64,000 nt of DNA. Origin: Tessaracoccus sp. SD287. GTDB lineage: Bacteria > Actinomycetota > Actinomycetes > Propionibacteriales > Propionibacteriaceae. The notes under the pieces were generated by a model. The model did not search any database. It worked only from the letters and a program-made list of their open reading frames with translations, and had not been told where the DNA came from. The stretch covers positions 124,001-188,000 of the forward strand of contig NZ_JADIJQ010000001.1 of the NCBI RefSeq assembly GCF_017355265.1, written 5' to 3'. The translations under genes and the position numbers were made by a program. Of this stretch, positions 12,201-15,832 are shown in pieces. Numbering within the stretch: position 1 is the first letter of the stretch; the number at the start of each line of letters is the position of its first letter.

Positions 12201-15122
12201 TCAGCTGCAGCCGCTGGTCGAGCCGCAGCCCTCGCAGGCGTAGCACGAACCGGACGGACGCATCTTGGTGCCGCAGGTCATGCACAGCGGGGCATCCACC
12301 GACAGGCCGGTCATGGCCTCCATCAGCTCGGCCGTGGTCTGACCGGCGTTCGCCGGCGCCTTGGCCACCGGAGCAGCGGCGGGGGCGCTGACGGCTGCCG
12401 GGGTGCTCACCGCAGGGGTGAACTCCACCAGCGAGGGCTGGTTGGCGCCGGGCTCGTCAAAGCGACGGTTGTCGACATCGTCGTTCTGCAGCGACTGGGC
12501 CTCAGGGATCTGGGCCTGGTCCTCCTCGGAGGGGTAACGGCCGGTCTCCACGTAGTGGGCCCGCTCCGCGGCGGTGTAGATGCCCAGTTCGGAGCGCTCG
12601 TCGAAGCTCAGGTAGTCCAGCGCCAGGCGACGGAAGACGTAGTCGATCAGCGACTGGGCGATGCGGATGTCGGCATCATCGGTCATGCCGGCCGGCTCGA
12701 ACTTCATGTTCGTGAACTTCTGGACGTAGGTCTCCAGCGGGACGCCGTACTGCAGCGCCACCGAGATCGCCAGCGAGAAGGCGTCCATGACCCCGGCCAG
12801 GGTCGAGCCCTGCTTGCCGAGCTTCAGGAAGATCTCGCCCAGGTCGCCGTCCTCGTAGCGCGACGAGGTCAGGTAGCCCTCGGCCCCGCCCACCGAGAAC
12901 GAGGTGGTGCGCGAGTCACGCGACTTGGGCAGGCGGCGGCGACGCGGCCGGTACTCCACCCGCACCTCCGGGGCCACCGCCACGGGGGCGACGGCAGCCG
13001 GCTCGGCCTTCTTGCGTCCGTCGGACAGCGGCTGTCCCACCTTGCAGTTGTCGCGGTAGACGGCCAGCGCCTTGAGGCCCAGCTTCCAGCCCTGCAGGTA
13101 GACGTCGGCGATCTCTTCGACGGTGGCCGATTCGGGCAGGTTGACGGTCTTGGAGATGGCACCGGACAGGAACGGCTGGACAGCAGCCATCATCCGCACG
13201 TGGCCCATGGGAGCGATGAACCGCACCCCCATGGCGGTGTCGAAGACCTCGTAGTGCTCGGGCTTCAGGCCGGGGGCGTCGACCACGTGGCCGTGCTCGG
13301 CGATGAAGCTGACGATGGCCTCGGCGGTCTCGGTGGCGTAGCCCAGGTTCTTCAGGGCGCGGGGAATGGTCTGGTTGACGATCTGCATCGAACCGCCGCC
13401 GACGAGCTTCTTGAACTTGACCAGCGAGAAGTCGGGCTCGATGCCGGTGGTGTCGCAGTCCATCATGAAGCCGATGGTTCCGGTCGGGGCCAGCAGCGAG
13501 GCCTGGGCATTGCGGAAGCCGTTGCTCTCGCCCAGTTCGACGACTGCGGCCCACTCCTGCTGGGCGGCGCGCAGCACGTCGCCGTCGACCTCGTTGTGGG
13601 TGACCACGTCGTAGTTGGCGTCGCGGTGCTTGCGCATGACCCGCTTGTGGGCCTCCGCGTTGCGGGCGTAGCCGGCGTAGGTGCCGACGACACCGGCCAG
13701 TTCGGCCGAACGGCGGTAGGCGGCACCGGTCATCAGCGAGGTGATGGCGGCGGCGAGCACCCGGCCACCCTCGGAGTCGTAACCCTTGCCCAGTGCCATC
13801 AGCAGCGCGCCCAGGTTGGCGTAGCCGATGCCCAGCTGGCGGTAGTCGCGGGTGGTCTGGGTGATGGCCTCGGTCGGGAAGTCGGCGAAGCAGATCGAGA
13901 TGTCCATCGCGGTGATGATCAGTTCGGTGGCCTTGACGAAGTTCTCGATGTCAAAGGTGTCGTCATCGTTGAGGAACTTCAGCAGGTTGAGGCTGGCCAG
14001 GTTGCACGAGGAGTTGTCCAGGCTCATGTACTCCGAGCAGGGGTTGGACGCGGTGATGCGTCCAGTCTCGGGGTTGGTGTGCCAGTCGTTGATGACCCCG
14101 TCGTACTGGATGCCCGGGTCGGCGCACTCCCAGGCAGCCTTGGCAATCTTGCCGAACAGCTCGGTGGCGCGGACCTCTTCGATGACCGAGCCGTCGGCGC
14201 GTGAGGTCAGCCCGAAGGTGGTGTCCTGCTCGACGGCACGCATGAACTCGTCGGTGACGCGCACCGAGTTGTTGGCGTTCTGGTACTGCACCGAGGTGAT
14301 GTCCTTGCCGCCGAGGTCCATGTCGAAGCCGGCGTCGCGCAGGGCGCGGATCTTGTCCTCCTCGCGGGCCTTGGTCTCGACGAACTCGACGATGTCGGGG
14401 TGGTCGACGTCCAGGACGACCATCTTGGCCGCACGGCGGGTGGCGCCACCGGACTTGATGGTGCCGGCCGAGGCGTCGGCGCCACGCATGAAGGAGACCG
14501 GGCCCGAGGCGGTGCCGCCGGAGCTCAGCAGTTCCTTCGACGAACGGATCCGCGACAGGTTGAGACCGGCACCGGAACCGCCCTTGAAGATGAACCCCTC
14601 TTCCTTGTACCAGTTGAGGATCGAGTCCATCGAGTCGTCGACCGAGAGGATGAAGCAGGCGCTGACCTGCTGCGGCGACTGCGTCCCCACGTTGAACCAG
14701 ACCGGGGAGTTGAAGCTGAAGTACTGGTGGGCCAGCATCCAGGTGAGCTCGTGCTCGAAGACCAGCGCGTCCTGGTCGGTGGCGAAGTAGCCGTTGTCGA
14801 TTCCGGCGCGGGTGTAGGTCTTGACGACCCGATCGATCAGGTCCTTGAGGCTTGACTCGCGGGCGTCAGTGCCCAGCGCGCCACGGAAGTACTTGGTGGT
14901 GACGATGGTGGACGCGTTGATGCTCCAGAAGTCGGGGAACTCGACGCCGCGCTGCTCGAAGACGGTGACACCGGTCTTCCAGTTGGTCTGGACGATGTCG
15001 CGCTTCTCCCAGGTCATCTCGTCATAGGGGTGCACACCGTCGGTGGTGAACACGCGCTCGATGGTCAGTCCTGCCCGCTTGCGGGTGGAGTTGCGGCGCG
15101 CCGTCCGAGTGGTCTCGGTCAT
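12201..15122 (-). CDS. nrdJ: Adenosylcobalamin-dependent (class II) ribonucleoside-diphosphate reductase
   Basis: 973-residue vitamin B12-dependent reductase making deoxyribonucleotides. Landmarks: FGSINAS-type start replaced by EFPDFWSINASTIVTTKYFR, the substrate site FNSPVWFNVGTQSPQQVSAC with the redox Cys, GGSGAGLNLSRIRSSKELLS, NPCSEYMSLDNSSCNLASLN with active-site Cys, and the C-terminal zinc-ribbon-like CMTCGTKMRPSG..CYACEGCGS that regenerates the disulfide. The ATG at 15122 follows AGGAGACC; the frame extends further upstream but without recognisable residues. It is 89 nt downstream of nrdR, probably the same mRNA. Regulation is expected through the NrdR box and DnaA-like sites ahead of nrdR; no cobalamin riboswitch was seen. 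Confidence 0.96.
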   Translation of the reverse strand: MTETTRTARRNSTRKRAGLTIERVFTTDGVHPYDEMTWEKRDIVQTNWKTGVTVFEQRGVEFPDFWSINASTIVTTKYFRGALGTDARESSLKDLIDRVVKTYTRAGIDNGYFATDQDALVFEHELTWMLAHQYFSFNSPVWFNVGTQSPQQVSACFILSVDDSMDSILNWYKEEGFIFKGGSGAGLNLSRIRSSKELLSSGGTASGPVSFMRGADASAGTIKSGGATRRAAKMVVLDVDHPDIVEFVETKAREEDKIRALRDAGFDMDLGGKDITSVQYQNANNSVRVTDEFMRAVEQDTTFGLTSRADGSVIEEVRATELFGKIAKAAWECADPGIQYDGVINDWHTNPETGRITASNPCSEYMSLDNSSCNLASLNLLKFLNDDDTFDIENFVKATELIITAMDISICFADFPTEAITQTTRDYRQLGIGYANLGALLMALGKGYDSEGGRVLAAAITSLMTGAAYRRSAELAGVVGTYAGYARNAEAHKRVMRKHRDANYDVVTHNEVDGDVLRAAQQEWAAVVELGESNGFRNAQASLLAPTGTIGFMMDCDTTGIEPDFSLVKFKKLVGGGSMQIVNQTIPRALKNLGYATETAEAIVSFIAEHGHVVDAPGLKPEHYEVFDTAMGVRFIAPMGHVRMMAAVQPFLSGAISKTVNLPESATVEEIADVYLQGWKLGLKALAVYRDNCKVGQPLSDGRKKAEPAAVAPVAVAPEVRVEYRPRRRRLPKSRDSRTTSFSVGGAEGYLTSSRYEDGDLGEIFLKLGKQGSTLAGVMDAFSLAISVALQYGVPLETYVQKFTNMKFEPAGMTDDADIRIAQSLIDYVFRRLALDYLSFDERSELGIYTAAERAHYVETGRYPSEEDQAQIPEAQSLQNDDVDNRRFDEPGANQPSLVEFTPAVSTPAAVSAPAAAPVAKAPANAGQTTAELMEAMTGLSVDAPLCMTCGTKMRPSGSCYACEGCGSTSGCS

Positions 15123-15211: not shown

Positions 15212-15673
15212 TCAGTGCGTGGCCGCAGGCTCTGAAGCCTGCATGCGGCCGATTTCGGCGATGAAGTCGTCCACGCACTGGTAGTGCTTGTAGACGGAGG
15301 CGAATCGCAGGTAGGCCACTGGGTCGAGTTCGCTGAGCGGGCCGAGGATGGCCACGCCGACCTCGTCGGTGGGAACCTCGGCCAAGCCGCTGGCCCGCAG
15401 CGCCTCTTCGACGCGCTGGCCAAGTTTGGCGAGGTCGGCCTCGGTCACGGGTCGTCCCTTGCAGGCCTTGCGGACGCCCGAGACCACCTTGTCGCGATTG
15501 AATGGTTCGATCACCCCACTCTTCTTCACCACCACCAACTGCATCTGCTCAATGGTGGTGAAGCGTCGCCCGCACTCGGGGCACTGGCGGCGCCGGCGGA
15601 TGCTGGCGCCCTCGTCGGCGGACCGCGAATCCAGCACGCGGGAGTCGCCGTGGCGGCAGAAGGGACAATGCAT
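15212..15673 (-). CDS. nrdR: Transcriptional repressor NrdR
   Basis: 153-residue ATP/dATP-sensing repressor of ribonucleotide reductase genes. The N-terminal zinc ribbon is [17 protein letters not shown] with CPECGRRF, followed by the ATP-cone [20 protein letters not shown] and the C-terminal [19 protein letters not shown]. Start ATG at 15673 is preceded by GGGAG; an ATG four codons earlier lacks a ribosome site. It lies directly upstream of nrdJ and is presumably autoregulated by the site around 15787-15804. The 125-nt leader contains inverted repeats and DnaA-box-like motifs. Confidence 0.96.
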
Positions 15674-15710
15674 GACAACTCCCATCGGCGGGTCATGGGG
15701 CGGTGTGGTC

Positions 15711-15773
15711 TGTGGGTAACGTGTGCAGAAGCTGTGGAGAAGTTGTGGACTTCAAACCACAAGCTGTGGATGA
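15711..15773 (-). promoter_or_regulatory. Cluster of four DnaA-box-like sites in the nrdR leader
   Basis: On the minus strand the nonamers TTACCCACA (15711-15719), TTCTCCACA (15733-15741), AAGTCCACA (15744-15752) and TCATCCACA (15765-15773) all resemble the DnaA box TTRTCCACA with one or two differences and the same orientation. Two of them form hairpins with nearby CCACAA/CCACAG (15743-15762 and 15764-15780). Binding by DnaA is an inference. Confidence 0.45.
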
Positions 15774-15786
15774 ACCACAGCGATGT

Positions 15787-15832
15787 AACTACTAGATGTA
15801 GAGACTATAGGCCTCGCCGACCCCGACATCAA
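15787..15832 (-). promoter_or_regulatory. nrdR-nrdJ promoter with overlapping NrdR-box candidate
   Basis: On the minus strand a -35 TTGATG (complement of 15827-15832) is followed after exactly 17 nt by -10 TATAGT (15804-15809). Immediately downstream, overlapping the expected transcription start, is TCTCTACATCTAGTAGTT (15787-15804), close to actinobacterial NrdR boxes with a CTACATCTAG core. A repressor bound here would cover the -10 and +1 region. Gene distance to nrdR ATG is about 125 nt. Confidence 0.65.

Follow-up and report, generated by a model that had tools for sequence, protein, structure and literature searches.

The window analysed here, a 64-kb stretch corresponding to positions 124001-188000 of contig C1 of a 3.0-Mb genome, contains the genes nrdR and nrdJ, and all features of the nrdR-nrdJ leader lie on the minus strand. 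The nearest relative compared was Aestuariimicrobium kwangyangense (Propionibacteriaceae), which was taken as congeneric. The gene nrdR (15212-15673) was called as an open reading frame with an ATG start at 15673 behind a GGAG motif and an alternative ATG at 15685. Its product carries the Zn_ribbon_NrdR and ATP-cone domains (window 15215-15673). The next gene, nrdJ (12201-15122), encodes a class II, B12-dependent ribonucleotide reductase with PF02867, PF08471 and TSCPD domains, and its likely start is the ATG at 15122.

The promoter named in an earlier note on this DNA is present at 15832-15804. It consists of a -35 hexamer TTGATG (15827-15832) and a -10 hexamer TATAGT (15804-15809) separated by a 17-nt spacer, and represents the sole sigma-70-type match within 2.1 kb. 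A TANNNT motif occupies the same position as the -10 hexamer in relatives. Transcription of nrdRJ would start at about 15797, which gives a leader of 124 nt.

The same note had placed an NrdR-like site at the transcription start, and this part stood: the core of NrdR box 1, CTACATCTAG (15792-15801), lies at +1 and has the C-N8-G form with the C/G pairs that are invariant at nrdRJ of S. coelicolor. The site is not single, since a second core, CCACAGCTTG (15760-15769), is located 32 bp away, a spacing that is kept at 31-32 bp in relatives carrying a pair. With their invariant C-N8-G and a spacing of roughly three helical turns, the two boxes, together with the domains of the nrdR product, mark this as a putative NrdR-regulated promoter. 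The arrangement resembles that of S. coelicolor, where the NrdR-DNA structure revealed the invariant C-N8-G and a box pair 31 bp apart at nrdRJ (PMC9110341); in both cases cores about 31-32 bp apart lie upstream of nrdR-nrdJ. It is also similar to nrdRJ of P. acnes, for which an NrdR box pair and start sites were mapped at the operon promoter, the pair overlapping the distal mapped promoter (PMC3848588). We found no description of DnaA sites in either of these NrdR papers, the latter of which does not mention DnaA. Between the two boxes lies an imperfect palindrome, TTACA-N4-TGTGG (15775-15788). Many lineages that carry the array described below contain TTACA-N4-TGTAA midway between the NrdR boxes, and this motif is missing in Streptomyces.

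DnaA-like nonamers in the leader

Five DnaA-like nonamers are present in the leader, all in one orientation, and were scored with a matrix derived only from the dnaA-dnaN (oriC) regions of relatives. Nonamer 1, TCATCCACA (15765-15773, 14.6 bits), lies inside NrdR box 2. It is followed by the weak nonamer 2, AAGTCCACA (15744-15752, 5.4 bits), nonamer 3, TTCTCCACA (15733-15741, 14.3 bits), nonamer 4, TTCTGCACA (15722-15730, 10.1 bits), and nonamer 5, TTACCCACA (15711-15719, 10.5 bits), with nonamers 3, 4 and 5 each 11 bp from the preceding one. Four of these had been noticed before, and all four are present in the orientation given; the count has to be raised to five, as TTCTGCACA (15730-15722) had been overlooked. 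Because this nonamer fills the gap, the last four, starting at 15752, 15741, 15730 and 15719, follow each other in exact 11-bp steps on one strand. Nonamer 1 is not supported as an independent site, since it belongs to NrdR box 2. None of the five is a perfect match to TTRTCCACA. The oriC boxes of the host are TTGTCCACA, TCGTCCACA and TCATCCACA, the last of which is also the sequence of nonamer 1, and the oriC candidate is located between dnaA and dnaN on another contig, C22. A reading of the nrdR leader as a replication origin was considered and rejected, given that the cluster has no dnaA or dnaN neighbour and that the oriC candidate lies on contig C22.

A role for the hairpins noticed earlier in this leader was not supported, as the pairing of CCACA with TGTGG largely represents the palindrome of the NrdR box and a conserved RNA fold was not found. 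It could still be argued that the leader acts as RNA, either through attenuator hairpins or as a riboswitch, and GCTGTGGTTCATCCACAGC in the window can indeed fold into a hairpin with a T-rich tail behind it. Against this, tRNAs were the only matches in the Rfam search, which revealed neither a cobalamin riboswitch nor a leader RNA, and folding of the array alone was no better than that of shuffled sequences (mean z -0.3). Furthermore, the consensus fold amounts to one 5-bp helix of -0.5 kcal/mol, and the repeats lie on one strand, without pairing partners. We therefore regard an RNA element as highly improbable.

Within the 64-kb window, the leader contains the densest same-strand cluster of such sites (five in 75 nt), and the runner-up elsewhere has three. 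In the whole 3.0-Mb genome, a phased three-site pattern matched only the nrdR leader, with no match of the reversed-pattern control. This pattern was fitted post hoc to the nrdR-leader site, so that the comparative test carries the weight. A looser, unphased three-site pattern gave no more real matches than reversed-control matches, and the single-genome statistics are weak on their own for this reason. The chance test within one genome is modest evidence.

Occurrence of the array in Actinomycetia

The earlier note had proposed that conservation of the nonamers be checked in related genomes. We ran this comparison, and the proposal passed it clearly: rows of oriC-type nonamers separated by 2-3 bp are found again and again in Actinomycetia. 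Among 44 non-redundant leaders of Propionibacteriales, scanned downstream of NrdR box 2, the matrix detected 111 forward and 9 reverse sites, compared to 14.7 +/- 3.8 sites in dinucleotide-shuffled sequences; upstream of the promoter, the counts were 5 and 7. The leaders of other Actinomycetia families contained 82 forward versus 8 reverse sites, with steps mostly of 11 and 12 bp. In Propionibacteriales, adjacent sites are 11 bp (32 pairs) or 12 bp (23 pairs) apart, corresponding to gaps of 2-3 bp. Further spacings fall mostly at 21-24, 32-35 and 43-46 bp, with none at 13-19, 25-30 or 36-42 bp. The array also keeps in phase with nonamer 1, which lies within NrdR box 2, at offsets of about 20-21, 31-32, 42-43 and 53-54 bp.

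In vivo, E. coli DnaA binds to box pairs separated by 2 or 3 bp, and widening the gap by a single base pair strongly reduces binding (PMC11317965). Double boxes of this kind, with one orientation and a 2-3 bp gap, are present in the window and across families. A phased pair occurs in 42 of 78 leaders, with 0.1 in shuffles and none on the reverse strand. When 1.16 million strand-bases around nrdR (about 105 loci) were searched, all 26 double boxes lay within nrdR leaders. The leader sites also match the DnaA boxes of the order's own oriC, both by the matrix and in a matrix-free check, in which the flanks of CC[A/C]CA were nearly alike in leaders and oriC (TTRT before, G after). When phased triples were searched for in 57 relatives, the places where they chiefly recurred were oriC and the nrdR leader. 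The array occurs in many Actinomycetia families, although close genomes are not independent of each other; laboratory species that bear it include Aestuariimicrobium kwangyangense and Actinopolymorpha rutila. In a few relatives, oriC-type sites were absent from the 500 nt after dnaA, and the oriC of these organisms may lie elsewhere.

The repeats might instead be extra NrdR half-sites, or sites of another regulator, without any involvement of DnaA. In favour of this, nonamer 1 makes up one half of NrdR box 2, and CCACA is common to both motifs. However, NrdR sites take the form of C-N8-G palindromes spaced by 31-32 bp, while the row is non-palindromic, advances in steps of 11-12 bp and copies oriC in base preferences and spacing. 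Moreover, the row is missing from Streptomyces leaders with NrdR boxes: none of 65 Streptomyces-type leaders has the array, though nrdRJ and the NrdR boxes are kept. We consider such half-sites a decidedly unlikely explanation.

The array was not found at any of 11 nrdR genes without an adjacent nrdJ, versus 41 of 78 with nrdJ; a Fisher test that takes no account of phylogeny gives P about 6e-4. This bears on the idea that the row binds DnaA as a reservoir or as an ATP-DnaA conversion site similar to datA or DARS, with nrdRJ as a mere convenient address. Double boxes likewise occur in E. coli datA and DARS (PMC11317965), and similar phased arrays were detected in non-nrd intergenic regions of relatives. 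Nevertheless, from family to family the array keeps one orientation and a fixed distance to the nrdRJ promoter and NrdR box 2, and it is always missing where nrdR has no nrdJ beside it. Since a titration site needs neither a fixed placement nor nrdJ, a reservoir would leave both unexplained, and we deem it improbable.

Having an nrdRJ operon does not require the array. It is dispensable: the Streptomyces-type operons do without it, and of the 31 Propionibacteriaceae leaders that have an NrdR pair, 14 contain no phased pair. The Microbacterium leaders inspected contained no array. Streptomyces and close relatives have a TATGCT-like -10 element downstream of the NrdR boxes, and their nrdRJ leaders (L038-L111) show a conserved ATCGCCTATGCT in the same direction from the boxes. 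Judging from the location of these elements, the promoter appears to have taken over the position of the array, which suggests that loss of the array went along with a shift of the promoter relative to the boxes. The second reductase locus of the host, which has an NrdH-like frame upstream, contained no array and no matching NrdR core in the stretch inspected. One NrdR-like core and no array were found at the second reductase of another genome (G001).

Possible control by DnaA and NrdR

We interpret the row as a putative DnaA array because its gaps are exactly 2 or 3 bp, as for E. coli DnaA, and because the search for phased triples brought it up along with oriC. With the oriC clusters of the same order it shares the nonamer preferences and the helical spacing on one strand. 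It differs from them in lying away from dnaA-dnaN, in having one orientation only and in being attached to a promoter. On the basis of this comparative sequence evidence, DnaA probably binds the leader array and thereby controls nrdRJ, whichever sign the effect has.

The leader would then be a composite control region. Judging from the boxes, an NrdR tetramer loaded with dATP/ATP would sit on the two boxes that cover the transcription start, a mode of binding established for S. coelicolor NrdR (PMC9110341). ATP-DnaA would bind cooperatively to the row, from about +46 to +87, as it does on sub-sites of oriC and on double boxes in E. coli, and would thus lie across the path of RNA polymerase, beside NrdR or in competition with it. 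As the row stands in fixed helical register with NrdR box 2 and runs into it, occupancy by DnaA and by NrdR should interact. At high levels of free ATP-DnaA, the downstream filament would hold nrdRJ down, and initiation would use up ATP-DnaA and lead to release, as for E. coli nrdAB, where repression by DnaA is released after initiation (PMC8203912).

The opposite sign may also be imagined: DnaA could act as an anti-repressor, spreading from the row to nonamer 1, taking NrdR off box 2 and turning nrdRJ on at initiation. The overlap of nonamer 1 with NrdR box 2, in register with the row, fits this variant, and sites downstream of a transcription start usually hinder RNA polymerase, which counts against it. 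We hold it to be possible but doubtful. Repression that is released after initiation appears most likely and is favoured over displacement of NrdR. Several points speak against DnaA control: the array lies downstream of the promoter, in contrast to the E. coli nrdA sites, it is dispensable, and in the window nonamer 2 is weak and no nonamer is perfect. More speculatively, the leader could represent an ancient actinobacterial switch that combines dATP/ATP-NrdR and ATP-DnaA, with NrdR box 2 as a rung of the phased DnaA ladder and direct competition between both proteins, so that nrdJ output would read dNTP level and initiation state. We put this forward tentatively, as a conjecture that could well be wrong.

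To our knowledge, nrdAB of E. coli is the only case in which the coupling between precursor supply and the start of replication has been worked out in detail. DnaA acts at nrdAB and nrdD of E. coli and has been proposed to act at ribonucleotide reductase genes of B. subtilis and C. crescentus (PMC8203912, PMC11317965). As at E. coli nrdAB (PMC11317965, PMC8203912), DnaA boxes, here predicted ones, occur in pairs separated by 2-3 bp at an operon for a ribonucleotide reductase. In contrast to nrdAB, up to five predicted sites lie in a transcribed leader behind an NrdR box pair, and the operon is a class II nrdR-nrdJ operon of Actinomycetia. The earlier note had regarded DnaA sites at class II nrdJ as undescribed, and we likewise came across no report of them in the literature searched, which left most subscription journals outside. 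The actinobacteria that carry the array probably tie DNA-precursor supply to the start of replication, which would be new for a class II reductase. If this is true, DnaA control would extend to the third class of ribonucleotide reductases, and the leader would offer a case of DnaA and NrdR possibly acting on overlapping DNA. A conserved and easily mutated DnaA-type array on a class II operon provides a testable actinobacterial counterpart to nrdAB.

Several other DnaA-like arrays were observed. A recurrent phased DnaA-box array lies in the intergenic region beside a gene for a YgjP-like metallopeptidase (L208 933-1012, L209 and L210, which belong to the f2 genomes, as well as L218, L222 and L223), with a DUF5679 gene on the opposite flank in the f2 genomes. 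This array is a possible datA/DARS-like or regulatory site. In f3 genomes, a PHP-domain/HHH (DNA polymerase X-like) gene is preceded by phased DnaA-like triples (L211 983-1007, L212 1015-1039, L213 956-980), and phased DnaA-like sites were found upstream of the gene for the replicative helicase dnaB at L217 944-978. The host itself has three perfect TTGTCCACA boxes within about 250 bp at C64:87254-87499 (L133 455-692), upstream of an apparent CsoR-type regulator gene, and, at C34:35756 and C34:67783, perfect box pairs with a spacing of 12-13 bp. Pairs of TTGTCCACA exactly 30 bp apart were detected on contigs C8, C4 and C47 (L136, L137, L138), which are perhaps copies of a repeated element.
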